In this document: piece after piece, positions 3,305 to 60,324 of the stretch | Position numbering within the stretch: position 1 is the stretch's first letter | Layout of the letters: each line of letters begins with the position of its first letter | Source: Protonemura montana | Lineage: Eukaryota; Arthropoda; Insecta; Plecoptera; Nemouridae | Direction of reading: 5' to 3' | NCBI GenBank assembly: GCA_947568835.1 | Contig: OX387609.1 | Location: 9,811,660-9,875,659 of the forward strand | DNA length: 64,000 bases | The notes under the pieces: generated by a model | What the model was told of the DNA's origin: nothing | Seen by the model: the letters and a program-made list of their open reading frames with translations, nothing else | Databases searched by the model: none | Position numbers and translations under genes: made by a program

Positions 3305-3752
3305 CTTAGGTACCTTTTAGTTGAAGTGTTAGTTGAAACTGTTGCCATGACGACTTCCAATCACATGCAGTGAAATTCAGATGTTTCTGTGAGCTAGAGA
3401 TCCAACTTATAGTTTAAAATTTTGTTGAAACTATTGCCATGACGACTTCCAATCACTTGCAGTGAAATTCAGATGTTTCTGTTAGTTAGAGATCCAACTG
3501 ATAGTTGAACATTTTGTTGAAACTGTTGCCATGACGACTTCCAATCACATGCAGTGAAATTCAGATGTTTCTGTGAGCTAGAGATCCAACTTATAGTTGA
3601 CCATTTTGGTAAAACCCAACCTTAAGCCCGGTATTTCAATATTTTACAACTAAGTCTTAAGCTTCTAGCTCACAGAAACAGCTGACTTTCACAGCACCTG
3701 ATTGGTTGTTGCCATGCAAATAGTTTCAACATACACTTCATCTAGGAGTAAA
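3305..3752. mobile_element. MITE-like palindromic element (family A), 92-bp triplication
   Basis: The block gttgaaactgttgccatgac recurs at 3332, 3424 and 3516 (92-bp period). It is followed by a diverged inverted copy ending at 3752. Other copies of the family lie at 9505, 50,893, 60,733 and 63,143. It is in the GPCR intron. Confidence 0.7.
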
Positions 3753-4050: not shown

Positions 4051-4166
4051 ATAACGCTGCACGTGGCCTATGGTCACGCCATCGTGAACCCCACGCTGTT
4101 TCTCGTGTTACACCGGGGACTGCGCGCGGCGGTCGTTGACCTTTGCTGCGGCTGCTGCACCCAATG
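4051..4166 (+). CDS. Class A GPCR, TM7 and helix 8 exon
   Basis: This 116-nt exon lies between ...ctctgcgcag (ends 4050) and a gtaag donor at 4167. It is phase 0 at its start, matching the previous exon, and leaves two bases (tg) at its end. The translation ITLHVAYGHAIVNPTLFLV is a classic TM7 with NPTLF in place of NPxxY. It is followed by the helix-8 segment LHRGLRAAVVDLCCGCC, whose clustered cysteines are likely palmitoylation sites. The exon has no ATG and is short, so an ORF search misses it. The split codon tg|g gives Trp with the next exon at 4851 (CTQ-W-YEWF). Two independent phase matches plus two canonical GPCR helices in the right order make this join strong. The intron before it is about 2.6 kb and the one after about 0.7 kb. 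Confidence 0.87.
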
Positions 4167-4850: not shown

Positions 4851-5691
4851 GTACGAATGGTTCCCGTCGGCGTCCGAGCGTCGCGCCGCCTGCTCGAGCG
4901 ACGACTCCGACAGCATGTTACCGCCCCCGCCCCAGCCCCCAGTGGTCACCTCCGTCAGCGACATCTCCCTGCTCAAGCCACCGCTACCTCCACTTCAAAC
5001 TGTCCCCGGTATGATGCAGCAAAACGCCGCGCTAATGCAAGCCAATCCGATGATGACAGCCAACACCGCAATGATGACAGCCAACAACGCGATGATGCAG
5101 AACAACCCAATGCTCCAGGCCAACAACGCCATGATGCAGAACAACCCGATGATCGGTCAGAATAATCAAATGATGCAAAATAACCCGATGATGGCATCGA
5201 ACCCACTAATGCAAGACAACAATCAAATGATGTACAATAATACCATCATGAACTCGTATCCGATGATCAACAATGAAATGATGCAGAACAACGCGATGAT
5301 GTCCAACAATGTGATGATGAATTCGTATCCAATGATGAACAACGAGATGATGCAGAATAACGCCATGATGTCCAACAACGCCATGATGAATCAAAACGCG
5401 ATTATCCAGGCCAACAATGCCATGATGCAAAACAATCAAATGATGAACGCGAACGCGATGCAACAGAACTCGATGATGCAACAGAACTCGATAATGCAAC
5501 AGAACGCCATGATGCAGGCGAACGCGTTGCATCAGTCCAATCCGATGCTGCAATCGAGCGCGCTCCACCAATCGAATCCGATGATGCAATCCAATCCTAT
5601 GATGCAATCCAATCCGATGATGCAATCGGCGCCAATGTTGCAGACGGCGCAGATGATGCAGTCGACGCCGATTATGCAGATGCACCCTTTG
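4851..5691 (+). CDS. GPCR cytoplasmic tail exon with Met/Asn/Gln-rich low-complexity repeat
   Basis: The 841-nt exon follows aacgccccag (AG at 4849-4850), starts with the third base of a split Trp codon, and ends at a gtaaat donor at 5692 in phase 0. The first ~65 residues hold a charged patch (SERRAACSSDDSDS) and two proline-rich stretches (LPPPPQPP, KPPLPPLQ), possible SH3/WW ligands. From about residue 65 it becomes a ~215-residue repeat of units such as MMQNNPM, MMSNN, MMNSYPM and MMQSNPM, made almost entirely of Met, Asn, Gln, Ser, Pro and Ala. Asn (aac/aat), Gln (cag/caa) and flanking codons vary between units, so the repeat looks maintained at protein level rather than freshly expanded DNA. 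GPCR tails of this composition are unusual. The antisense His/Arg/Leu-rich frame here is only its shadow. The alternative is that this exon belongs to a different gene, but the phase match and spacing argue against that. Confidence 0.78.
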
Positions 5692-5799
5692 GTAAATAGA
5701 ACATATATGTGAGTCTTGGTTGTTGTGTGCCTGATAGATGTATGCATTTGTTTTGTGCGTTTGAAGATTACAGCAGAGGGTTGGGTCTAGACCGGCGTT

Positions 5800-9053: not shown

Positions 9054-9260
9054 GGAAACGAGCATCTGATGTTCGGCGACGACCCCTGGGGCCCATCGGC
9101 GGCGGCGGCAACGGCGACAACGCCCACAACAACGACGACCACAACAGCGTCGCAAGAGCCCAGCGTCGGCATCGACGTCGGCGTCGGTCGCTACTCGCCG
9201 ACATCCAGCGACGTCGGCACCCCGCCTGACTCGCCGCAACTGCAGGACGGCGCCGACTGA
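9054..9260 (+). CDS. GPCR gene, probable terminal coding exon
   Basis: This 68-codon exon plus TGA stop begins after ctcatgcccgcag (AG at 9052-9053) in phase 0, matching the phase-0 donor at 5692. The product starts GNEHLMFGDDPWGP. It continues through Ala and Thr runs (SAAAATATTPTTTTTTTA), then a Ser/Thr/Pro/Asp-rich end (RYSPTSSDVGTPPDSPQLQDGAD) with several SP/TP sites suitable for phosphorylation. GC-rich codon choice matches the earlier exons and differs from the surrounding intron. The fit to the model rests on phase, strand and composition. A small exon in the 3.4-kb intron before it could have been missed. The first AATAAA seen downstream is near 10,444, so the 3' UTR may exceed 1 kb. 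With the other exons, 458 residues of the receptor's C-terminal part lie in the window. Confidence 0.68.
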   Translation, partial: GNEHLMFGDDPWGPSAAAATATTPTTTTTTTASQEPSVGIDVGVGRYSPTSSDVGTPPDSPQLQDGAD

Positions 9261-11147: not shown

Positions 11148-11925
11148 TTTAAACGACGCACTGTTTTGACAACGGGCCATGTGGCACTGGTCTTATGGCC
11201 TCGGTGAATGATGATGAGGATGTTGATGAACCTAGAAGGGAGGAGAGGAAACCCGGTGCTGGCAAGTAGCCTACTCCTGTCAAAGAGCACTAGGGTAACC
11301 GCTGGCTTCACGTCCCTTCCGAAGGACGGTACAACGCGGACAACAGGATTCCTCCACAAATCCATGCTGTCGAGAGGTTGATAAGCAAGGCGAGTGAAAT
11401 TGCTGCACTAACTTTCATCCATCCAACCTCTCTCCCGAACAGAACTGGTCATGTGTATGATGGTCGCCCATCCAATACCTGACCCAGCGCAGTGTTGCTT
11501 AACTTTCATCCCTCCAACCTCTCTCCCGAACAGAACTGGTCATGTGTATGATGGTCACCCATTCAATACCTGACTCAGCGCGGTGTTGCTTAACTTTCAT
11601 CCCTCCAACCTCTCTCCCGAACAGAACTGGCCATGTGTATGATGGTCACCCATCCAATACCTGACTCAGCGCAGTGTTGCTTAACTTTCATCCCTCCAAC
11701 CTCTCTCCCGAACAGAACTGGCCATGTGTATGATGGTCACCCATCCAATACCTGACCCAGCGCAGTGTTGATTAACTTTCATCCCTCCAACCTCTCTCCC
11801 GAACAGAACTGGTCATGTGTATGATGGTCGCCCATCCAATACCTGACCCAGTGCGGTGTTGCTTAACTTCAGGGACCTAACGAGAACCGGTGTTTCTAAC
11901 ACGCCAAACCGTTTAGTATTCTTTT
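11148..11925 (-). mobile_element. 5S-derived SINE with tandemly expanded head
   Basis: On the minus strand it reads: 5S-like head (ggttctcgt... gttaagcaacactgc... ggatgggtgacc), a unique body (cgacagcatggatttgtgg, ccgtccttcggaagggacg) and a 3' end with gtgcgtcgttta. Head similarity to metazoan 5S rRNA covers the internal promoter region. In this copy a 91-bp head segment is repeated five times. Confidence 0.8.
11410..11868 (-). repeat. 91-bp tandem array of the SINE head, 5 units
   Basis: The phrase aactttcatcc recurs at about 11,410, 11,501, 11,592, 11,683 and 11,774, an exact 91-bp period. Each unit keeps the ggtattggatgggtgacca-like block (reverse strand) corresponding to the 5S internal control region. 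Units differ by a few substitutions. Confidence 0.85.
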
Positions 11926-14295: not shown

Positions 14296-14700
14296 GTGAG
14301 GTCGAACACGTGAAAGTTGCACTAGGGTAGAGTCACATGCCCAGTCGAACACGTGAAAGTTCCACTGGGACAGAGTTACATGCCCAGTCGAACACGTGAA
14401 AGTTGCACTGGGGCAGAGTCACATGCTAAGTCGAATACGTGAAAGTTGCACTGGGGCAGAGTCACATGCTAAGTCGAATACGTGAAAGTTGCACTGGGAC
14501 AGAATTACATGCCCAGTCGAACATGTGAAAGTTGCACTGGGGCAGAGTCACATGCCCAGTCGAACACTTGAAAGTTGCACTGGGGCAGAGTCACATGCCC
14601 AGTCGAACATGTGAAAGTTGCACTGGGGTAGAGTCACATACCCAGGCGAACACGTGAAAGTTGCACTGGGACGGAGTCACATAGCCAGTCTAACACGTAT
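14296..14700 (+). repeat. 43-bp minisatellite, array 1 (about 9 units)
   Basis: The unit contains gtcgaacacgtgaaagttgc, actggggcagagtcacatgc and cca. Most units hold the palindrome cacgtg; others have cacttg, catgtg or tacgtg. The right flank (cggggcagccaagtcgaata) matches a sequence at 48,398. The same unit makes the array at 41,985. Confidence 0.9.
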
Positions 14701-15374: not shown

Positions 15375-15515
15375 ATTATTATGAACACTAAAACCGTCTC
15401 AAAAATTGATGCCCAAACGGGGACTCGAACCCCGATCTCCACCTATCGCGGGTGTTGCTCTAAACCATTGAGCTACTTGGACACTGGCTTTTTGAGACGA
15501 TTCTAGTGTATTTGA
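15375..15515. mobile_element. Foldback element carrying the tRNA-like sequence
   Basis: The tRNA-like segment lies between inverted copies of a sequence containing gaacactaaaaccgtctc, with a more degenerate right arm (ttttgagacgattctagtg). Two related elements at 28,160-28,260 and 28,318-28,412 share the arms and the gatgcccaaac/gtttgggcatc block. Confidence 0.5.
15410..15482 (-). tRNA. tRNA-like sequence (probable pseudogene) inside an inverted-repeat element
   Basis: The 73-nt minus-strand sequence folds as a tRNA. The acceptor stem is GTCCAAG/TTTGGGC with wobble pairs. The D arm is GCTC-loop-GAGC. The anticodon stem is CACC/GGTG with loop CGCGATA. The T arm is CGGGG-TTCGAGT-CCCCG with a canonical B box. 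Position 33 would be G rather than the invariant U, and the formal anticodon CGA does not fit well, so it is probably inactive. It is bracketed by gtctcaaaaa and tttttgagac, part of a repeat whose other copies near 28.2 and 28.35 kb lack the tRNA body. Confidence 0.5.
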
Positions 15516-29147: not shown

Positions 29148-29580
29148 ACCACCGAACGGTTTGGCGTGTTGGAAACACCGGTTCTCGTTAGATCACCGAA
29201 GTTAAGCAACACTGCGCTGAGTCGGGTATTGAATGGGTGACCATCATACACATGACCAGTTGTGTTCGGGAGAGAGGTTGGAGGGATGAAAGTTAGTTCA
29301 GGTACTTCACTCGCCTTGCTTATCAACCTCTCGACAGCGTGGATTTGTGGAGGAATCCTGTTGTTCGCGTTGTACCGTCCTTCGGAAGGGACGTTAAGCC
29401 GGTGATCGCCTTGGTGCTCTTCGACAGGAGTAGGCTACGTGCCGGCACCGAGTTTCCCCTCCTCCCTTCTAGGCTAGGTTAGGTTCATCATCATCCTCAT
29501 CATCATCCACTCATTCACCGACGCCATTAGACCAGTGCCGCAGGGCCAGATGTCAAAACAGTGCGTCGTTAAACACCACA
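29148..29580 (+). mobile_element. 5S-derived SINE, near full length reference copy
   Basis: This is the best copy in the window. The head is tttggcgtgttggaaacacc, then ggttctcgttagatcaccga and agttaagcaacactgcgctg. Next come a linker (gttcgggagagaggttgga) and a body (ccgtccttcggaagggacg, gtgctcttcgacaggagtag). It continues with a (tcatcatcatcc)-rich segment and a conserved 3' end (cagtgcgtcgttaaacacca), followed by an (aataat) tail. The 5S-like block supplies a candidate type I Pol III promoter. Confidence 0.82.
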
Positions 29581-30774: not shown

Positions 30775-31197
30775 CCTAGCCTAGAAGGGAGGGGGGGGGA
30801 AACCTGGCGCCGGCACGTAGCCTACTTCTGTCGAAGAGCTCCAAGGGGACCACCGGCTTTACGTCCCTTCCGAAGGACGGTACAACGTGAAAAGCAGGAT
30901 TCCTCCACAAATCCATGCTGTCGAGAGGTTGATAAGCAAGGCGAGTGAAGTTGCTGTACTAACTTTCATCCCTCTAACCTCTCTCCCAAACAGAACTGGT
31001 CATAAGTATGTTGGTCACCCATCCAATACCTGACTCAGCGCGGTGTTACTTAACTACGGTGATATCACGAGAATCGGTGTTGCCAACACGCCAAACCGTT
31101 CGGTGGTCACCCATCCAATACCTGACCCAGCGCAGTGTTGCTTAACTTCGGTGATCTAATAAGAATCGGTGTTTCCAACACGCCAAACCGTTCGATG
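30775..31197 (-). mobile_element. 5S-derived SINE, double-headed copy
   Basis: The minus-strand body with the cctagaagggag tail region is joined to two consecutive 5S-like heads (30,985-31,195). The head order matches the partial copy at 15.9 kb. Confidence 0.78.
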
Positions 31198-41984: not shown

Positions 41985-42532
41985 GCCAGTCGAACCCGTG
42001 AAAGTTGCTATGGGGCAGTCACATGCCCAGTCAAACACGTGAAAGTTGCACTGGGACAGAGTCACATGCCCAGTCGAACCCGTGAAAGTTGCAGTGGGAC
42101 AGAGTCACATCCCCAGTCAAACACGTGAAAGTTGCTATGGGGCAGTCACATGCCCAGTCAAACACGTGAAAGTTGCACTGGGGCAGCGTCACATGCCCAG
42201 TCGAACACGTGAAAGTTGCAGTGGGACAGAGTCACATCCCCAGTCGAACCCGTGAAAGTTGCACTGGGGCAGAGTCACATGCCCAGTCGAACACGTGAAA
42301 GTTGCACTGGGACAGAGTCACATGCCCAGTCGAACACGTGAAAGTTGCAGTGGGACAGAGTCACATCCCCAGTCGAACCCGTGAAAGTTGCACTGGGACA
42401 GAGTCACATGCCCAGTCGAACACGTGAAAGTTGCACTGGGACAGAGTCACATGCCCAGTCGAACACGTGAAAGTTGCACTGGGGCAGAGTCACATGCCCA
42501 GTCGAACCCGTGAAAGTTGCAGTGGGACAGCC
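41985..42532 (+). repeat. 43-bp minisatellite, array 2 (about 13 units)
   Basis: This is the same unit as at 14.3 kb, in the same orientation, with variants cccgtg for cacgtg, catccccag for catgcccag, and a shortened 40-bp unit (gctatggggcagtcacatgc). Unit variants are interspersed in blocks, suggesting unequal exchange. Confidence 0.9.
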
Positions 42533-50892: not shown

Positions 50893-51139
50893 TTAGGTCT
50901 GGTTTTACAAAAATGTTCAACTATAAGTTGGATCTCTGACTCACAGAAACATCTGAATTTCACTGCATGTGATTGGAAGTCGTCATGGCAACAGTTTCAA
51001 CAAAATGTTGAACTATAAGTTGGATCTCTAGCTCACAGAAACATCTGAATATCACTGCATGTGATTGGAAGTCGTCATGGCAACAGTTTCAACTAACACT
51101 TCAACTAGGAAGCGATATTTTGGTAATACCTGACCTAAA
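50893..51139 (-). mobile_element. MITE family A, nearly complete with 92-bp duplication
   Basis: Its ends ttaggtctggttttac and ggtaatacctgacctaa are imperfect terminal inverted repeats. Inside, tcacagaaacatctgaat recurs at 50,941 and 51,033, a 92-bp period. The duplication matches the one at 3.3 kb in the opposite orientation. Confidence 0.72.
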
Positions 51140-51255
51140 TTTCTGTAATATTGTTGTCAGGAAGATGCGTGGCAAATTGCAATCATAAATATTTCGAAGT
51201 TAGCACAAAGATTTCAATTTGAATCAAAACCAGCGAAGAAAGATTTTTGAAAGAG

Positions 51256-51735
51256 AACCACCTAGACAACCACCTAGACAACCACCTAGACAACCACCTA
51301 GACAACCACCTAGACAAGCACCTAGACAACCACCTAGACAACCACCTAGACCACCACCTAGACAACCACCTAGACAACCACCTAGACAACCACCTAGACA
51401 ACCACCTAGACAACCACCTAGACAACCACCTAGACAACCACCTAGACAACCACCTAGACAACCACCTAGACAACCACCTAGACAACCACATAGACAACCA
51501 CATAGACAACCACCTAGACAACCACATAGACAACCACATAGACAACCACCTAGACAACCACCTAGACAACCACCTAGACAACCACCTAGACAACCACCTA
51601 GACAACCACATAGACAACCACATAGACAACCACCTAGACAATCACATAGACAACCACATAGACAACCACCTAGACAACCACATAGACAACCACATAGACA
51701 ACCACATAGACAACCACATAGACTACCACCTAGGT
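51256..51735 (+). repeat. 12-bp minisatellite, about 40 units
   Basis: The unit is aaccacctagac, with a clustered variant aaccacatagac towards the right end. No frame has a stop on either strand, creating false ORFs of 150-176 codons (PPRQ, HLDN and RWLS repeats). Confidence 0.95.
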
Positions 51736-59956: not shown

Positions 59957-60095
59957 GTGGGCGATTAGCACTCTCTGAAGGAGATACCGGCAATATGAAG
60001 CGGAGAAGCGTGTCTACTTGATCCTGTCAATATTGCATAAAAATGCTTTCAAAATGTTTACAAACTATGTTTCTTCGTGCCAACGGTCTAGAACC

Positions 60096-60324
60096 GAACG
60101 GTTTGGCGGGTTGGAAATACCGGTTCTTGTGAGATCACCGAAGCTAAGCAACATTGCACTGGGTCAGGTATTGGATGGCTGACTATCATACACATGACCA
60201 GTTGTGTTCGGGAGAGAGGTTGGAGGGACCCAAGTTAATACTAAATCTCCTTGCTTATCAACCTCTCGACAGCATGGATTTGTGAAGGAATCCTGTTGTT
60301 CGCGCTTTACCATCCTTCGGAAGA
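60096..60324 (+). mobile_element. 5S-derived SINE in intron 1 of the NDUFA11-like gene
   Basis: The head (tttggcgggttggaaatacc, gatcaccgaagctaagcaac) and linker are well kept. The copy stops inside the body at catccttcggaag, so the 3' third is missing. Confidence 0.77.

Follow-up and report, generated by a model that had tools for sequence, protein, structure and literature searches.

The methionine-rich prion-like domains treated in the parts of Aledo 2022 drawn on here (PMC9312190) belong to soluble proteins. The human census given there comprises 51 methionine-rich prion-like proteins, membrane proteins having been filtered out, and the highest methionine content of a whole protein in the human proteome is 13.8%. 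According to other work quoted in the same parts of that source, droplets of yeast ataxin-2 (Pbp1) melt reversibly on methionine oxidation, and TDP-43 behaves alike. Long cytoplasmic tails, of 300+ to 500+ residues, are found in the Drosophila receptors Rickets, moody and CG32547 and, with the exception of one moody isoform, carry two to four conserved sites that are candidates for arrestin binding (PMC9624432, in the portion of its text used here).

The window (the whole stretch of 64,000 nucleotides that was analysed, C12:9811660-9875659 in a source genome of 258,480,905 bases in 34 contigs) includes the last four exons of a predicted seven-transmembrane (7TM) receptor whose cytoplasmic tail is comparable with both groups. 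Like the domains of yeast ataxin-2 and TDP-43, the tail is of low complexity, has Met clustered with Gln and Asn, contains more than five Met residues and shows, in its core, a Q/N density typical of prion-like segments. It differs from them in its location on a 7TM receptor and in its strict short period. With Rickets, moody and CG32547 it shares the length, whereas a Met/Asn/Gln array is not mentioned for these receptors in the portion of PMC9624432 used, as judged by the text and not by the sequences; the words 'asparagine', 'glutamine' and 'low complexity' are absent from that text. A Met-rich or prion-like GPCR tail was not found among the open-licence PubMed Central matches listed, as judged by titles and the starts of abstracts. 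Methionine-rich prion-like domains as such are known already. If one is maintained on a 7TM receptor, the protein would be a simple case of clustering, and perhaps of redox control, built into a receptor, and the core of the tail would represent a sticker-and-spacer polymer that occurs in nature and relies mainly on Met for its stickers.

Receptor gene and receptor class

The predicted receptor consists of 723 amino acid residues. Two of its exons lie upstream of the window, where TM1-TM5 are encoded, and the position of its start is uncertain owing to an extra in-frame ATG farther upstream. GC content of the window is 42%, and the CpG observed/expected ratio is 1.05. The features of the gene model are given below in window coordinates.

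-6088 to -5901, + strand: receptor exon A, upstream of the window
-2114 to -1508, + strand: receptor exon B, upstream of the window, which holds the end of TM3
1272 to 1484, + strand: exon C, with ICL3 and TM6 (FWGP, a CWxP variant); based on the open reading frame, splice sites, 7tm_1 match and GC3
4051 to 4166, + strand: exon D, with TM7 (NPTLF), helix 8 and the DLCCGCC cysteine cluster (TM and motif labels assigned by eye); based on splice sites, phase and 7tm_1 match
4851 to 5691, + strand: exon E, 280 aa of the cytoplasmic tail; open frame, phase-matched
4852 to 5010, + strand: part 1 of exon E, the juxtamembrane tail with an acidic serine cluster (ACSSDDSDS) and a proline-rich stretch; based on translation and GC3
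5011 to 5691, + strand: part 2 of exon E, the Met/Asn/Gln repeat core of 227 aa, with 38 parsed units and a period of 6
5227 to 5391, + strand: internal duplication within the core with a 69-bp period (TRF), the basis of the synonymous/non-synonymous count
9054 to 9260, + strand: last exon F, GNEHLMFGDDPW...QLQDGAD-stop; based on the acceptor, phase 0, stop TGA and GC3

The predicted junctions have GT/AG ends and matching phases, exon E being in phase with both exon D and exon F. With the junction marked by a slash, the splice sites of exon C read cacgcag/AAC and GAG/gtgagt, and the donor of exon D at 4166 reads ..CACCCAATG/gtaaga. Exon E has the acceptor ..ccccag/G at 4851 and the donor ..CCTTTG/gtaaat at 5691, and the acceptor of exon F at 9054 is ..cccgcag/GGA. 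Read in the proposed frame, exon C has a GC3 of 0.77, exon D of 0.76, the juxtamembrane and repeat parts of exon E of 0.77 and 0.76, respectively, and exon F of 0.78. The openness of exon E alone is weak evidence, since other frames in this region are open as well (112 aa twice on the + strand and 205 aa antisense). Removal of exon E from the model leads to a stop after W-E-T-S-I; hence, the exon is not a frame-neutral cassette.

The receptor matches the Pfam 7tm_1 profile (PF00001) for class A at 36 bits, the curated cut-off being 30.5, and TM6-TM7 alone reach 20 bits, which is under the cut-off. In the PDB, the sequences that match best belong to class A receptors (with TM1-TM7, E is 6e-4 at best, and with TM6-TM7 2e-4). 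The TM6/TM7/helix 8 layout is common to the protein and the rhodopsin-family (class A) receptors. As judged by eye, it differs from them in the absence of the DRY arginine at the end of TM3, which reads ..TTVLNDSPVF, in FWGP in place of CWxP, and in the variant NPTLF (from residue 349) in place of the canonical NPxxY, which is absent from TM7. Since many class A members depart from the DRY motif, the 7tm_1 profile score was taken to decide the class. Judged from its sequence, the gene is a divergent rhodopsin-type receptor, and a protein that lacks the DRY arginine and carries NPTLF may show unusual G-protein coupling. The first-pass annotation had placed a Met/Asn/Gln-rich tail on a GPCR, which is borne out by the 7tm_1 match above the cut-off and by the phase match of exon E after TM7 and helix 8. 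A search of the source genome with TM2-TM5 (E up to 10) revealed no second match, and one with TM6-TM7 gave four other weak matches with E 0.005 to 0.8.

Composition, period and maintenance of the repeat core

The cytoplasmic tail comprises 351 aa, starting at residue 373. In it, the acidic serine cluster is followed by the proline-rich stretch, then by the core at residues 429-655, and last by a part rich in Thr, Ser and Pro. A repeat of about 215 residues had been reported initially; the repeat is present, and its core measures 227 aa, slightly longer, within the 280-aa exon. The core includes Met 58, Asn 50, Gln 34, Ala 24, Ser 15 and Pro 14. Lys, Arg, Cys, Phe and Trp are all absent from it, and there are three acidic residues and three His.

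At least 30 Q+N per 80 aa is used as a threshold for prion-like composition. In the core, 135 of the 148 windows of 80 residues reach this value, with 17-24 Met per window. The designation prion-like applies in this respect, its support being limited to composition. Of the 75 Met residues of the receptor, 58 lie in the core, which makes up 227 of its 723 residues (binomial P 7e-11, calculated with the score formula of Aledo 2022), and 58 exceeds the minimum of 5 Met in a stretch stated in the parts of that paper used (PMC9312190). Met accounts for 25.6% of the residues in the core and for 10.4% over all 723 aa of the model; therefore, the receptor as a whole is no methionine record when compared with the human maximum of 13.8%.

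Parsing of the core gave 38 units, of which 26 have six residues, seven have seven, three have five and two have three. MM occurs 23 times. The units had been described as of the Met-Met-x-Asn-Asn type, and a regular period-6 array is indeed present, with MMxNN found exactly at 9 places and MMxxN at 19. At period 6, the hydrophobic power is 5.7; in 2000 shuffles, each scored at whichever of six periods was strongest, the 99.9% point is 2.2. The hydrophobic doublets are spaced by about six residues with a CV of 0.15 (mean 0.56 and minimum 0.33 in 2000 shuffles). The 72 parsed doublet slots are occupied by Met 58, Leu 7 and Ile 7, a purity that is circular, as the slots were defined as M/I/L. 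When up to three ambiguous slot positions with A or H, which were placed by eye, are counted, 14 of the 17 departures from Met are Leu or Ile (P 0.006 at p 0.5). Seven kinds of codon are used for Leu and Ile in the core, and hence these substitutions are not copies of one change.

A 96-nt internal repeat shows 16 base differences, 12 of them at third codon positions. In an ungapped self-comparison, four similar diagonals were observed, all in frame, with mismatches at codon positions 1/2/3 of 1/3/12, 18/10/26, 4/0/7 and 0/0/2, altogether 23/13/47 of 83; the values 18, 10 and 26 belong to the 3' half of the array, which is looser. The excess at position 3 across the four diagonals corresponds to a binomial P of 1e-5, which assumes independent sites and is rough because the repeat copies are not independent. 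In the 69-bp duplication (23 codons), 8 differences are synonymous and 3 are not (pS 0.89, pN 0.05). Comparison of all pairs of 24 hexads gave pS 0.74 and pN 0.30. With the frame shifted by 1, the same hexads contain 26 stops, and the two hexads left give pS 0.92 and pN 0.37; with a shift of 2, there are 3 stops, and the 21 hexads left give pS 0.26 and pN 0.41.

As the differences between the copies are biased to silent sites, the protein pattern appears to be maintained, without free slippage. This agrees with the maintenance at the protein level postulated in the first-pass annotation, and the frame-breaking repeat expansion that it had named as contrary evidence was not seen in any of the four diagonals. 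The sequence data support the resemblance of the core to an old, translated and selected repeat. Its codon choice is looser than that in exons A-D, as follows from the lower GC3 with Met and Trp codons excluded (0.67 versus 0.75) and from the weaker bias to AAC among the Asn codons (AAC/AAT 32/18 versus 17/2). The Gln codons CAG and CAA occur 17 times each in the core.

A pattern that requires one Met doublet, a second at a distance of six codons and one fixed Asn has 12 matches in the genome, including 8 in exon E. The 4 matches outside exon E are all single, and a reversed-pattern control likewise gave 4. A looser doublet pattern gave 2295 + 931 genome matches, which, among the matches listed, are mostly plain ATG repeats. 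At least 210 matches were found when the genome was searched with the core protein, 150 of 623 candidates being scored; among the matches listed, the best one outside the gene has 50.9 bits as compared with 389.9 for the gene itself. Met doublets were absent from the 9 outside loci inspected, in one frame each, out of 19 retrieved, and other repeats were found there instead.

Predicted structure and possible role of the tail

Prediction with AlphaFold2 for the product of exon E alone, as a single sequence, gave a mean pLDDT of 53.1 and a pTM of 0.26, with helices only and no strands; block means of pLDDT are 73-76 at residues 191-220 of the product. An amphipathic helix or strand was considered and rejected, the hydrophobic moments at 100, 120, 160 and 180 degrees being 0.45, 0.57, 0.34 and 0.37, as compared with shuffled means of 0.56, 0.56, 0.56 and 0.51, respectively.

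The core array is nearly uncharged, with Met doublets set at intervals of about six residues and polar spacers separating them. The tentative explanation that is preferred, with a probability of about 0.42, is that the tail may serve as an uncharged, self-associating sticker-and-spacer polymer that clusters receptors at the membrane. The core would be largely unfolded or weakly helical and would self-associate weakly via Met and Asn/Gln contacts. Such weak multivalent contacts would hold receptors, or the receptor and a partner, in membrane clusters or condensates, and the acidic serine cluster and proline-rich stretch beside helix 8 would stay free for binding of a kinase, arrestin or adaptor. 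A further step in this explanation is that Met oxidation would loosen these contacts, as it reportedly does in yeast ataxin-2 and TDP-43. A full redox gate seems unlikely; in this case, regularly spaced pairs of Met stickers would keep the receptor condensed at the membrane until sulfoxide formation dispersed it, with no adaptor involved, and signalling would track the oxidative state of the cell.

A folded core was considered as well. The six-residue period with an aliphatic position is a feature of left-handed β-helix hexapeptide proteins, and the Pfam family that the core matches best is LbH_EIF2B (PF25084; 25.1 bits, E 1.8e-5), against which the longer exon product scores 23.6 bits. Comparison with PDB sequences gave three matches with E of 10 or less, headed by an LpxA-type acyltransferase (E 0.1) and CA3 (E 0.46), both of them β-helix proteins. 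The match depends on residue order: LbH_EIF2B was matched by one of six spacer-shuffled, none of two fully shuffled and not by the single reversed control, and by one of nine column-permuted versions (out of 23 possible permutations), at 13.3 bits as compared with 19.4 for the real 142-aa part. However, the score of 25.1 bits is far under the Pfam cut-off of 54, and control sequences reach 15.5 bits by chance to any family. One spacer-shuffled control hit LbH_EIF2B at 13.1 bits and Hexapep_GlmU at 14.9 bits, and, since shuffled controls match hexapeptide families and others, the margin of the core over the controls is modest. Furthermore, the hexad register is broken by the irregular units (seven of 7, three of 5 and two of 3 residues), and AlphaFold2, though with low confidence, gives helices and no strands. 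A left-handed β-helix of hexapeptides (M-x-x-N-[A/P/S]-M) with Met inside the core of the fold is thus very unlikely. Even less is to be expected of a tail that binds Cu(I) and confers copper sensitivity on the receptor. The many closely spaced Met side chains would speak for it; against it, the doublets are about four residues apart, and the core has no Cys and three His. The known Cu(I) 'Mets' motifs, which come from transporters, are MxM or MxxM.

It is also rather improbable that exon E is normally outside the receptor, either being limited to a rare isoform or lying beyond an early end of the receptor. For an early end, the open frame continues past 5691 to VNRTYM-stop and terminates at 5712. 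Exclusion of the exon is opposed by the phase, which fits both sides, by GC3 like that of the flanking exons, by the early stop on skipping and by the silent-site-biased divergence, which indicates translation in the proposed frame; these points bear on exclusion of the exon and not on an early end. A plain spacer comes close to a clustering device in likelihood; the tail would then be a tolerated old tandem expansion of low complexity in a disordered region, kept open and uncharged by selection on composition, without self-assembly, and a maintained composition can equally serve as such a spacer. The plain tandem structure (TRF), the looser 3' half of the array, the lack of a confident AlphaFold2 fold and the long tails of Rickets, moody and CG32547 are all in keeping with it. 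Against it, the residues are kept closer than a pure spacer needs (pN 0.05 versus pS 0.89 in the 23 codons), and the doublet spacing is regular.

Other repeats and gene copies

A 92-bp tandem unit is located in a receptor intron at 3314-3615 and, as judged by eye, seemingly recurs inverted at 50910-51107, 47 kb off. A 43-bp minisatellite unit, apparently the same by eye, is present at 14301-14698 (9.3 copies) and 41986-42530 (12.8 copies). The region 51252-51733 consists of about 40 copies of a 12-bp unit with 96% matches, several frames being open. The window includes a single tRNA-Ser (CGA) gene at 15408-15483 on the - strand. Four 5S-rRNA-like copies score above the Rfam cut-off, at 29151-29271 (+), 11798-11916 (-), 60093-60213 (+) and 31090-31183 (-). 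Two of the 5S-rRNA-like copies overlap 91-92-bp minisatellites (11409-11869 and 31012-31194), which suggests a 5S-derived repeat turned tandem. Elsewhere in the genome, contig C34 of 15,885 bases carries COX1. Of five genetic codes applied to 1,201 bases of this contig, codes 5, 9, 13 and 14 give no stops and code 2 gives two; as judged by eye, the protein resembles that of an arthropod, which is the probable source of the receptor. COX1-like stretches at C4:5761471, C4:5777357 and C12:1429616 score equal to the COX1 of C34 and are perhaps recent nuclear copies.
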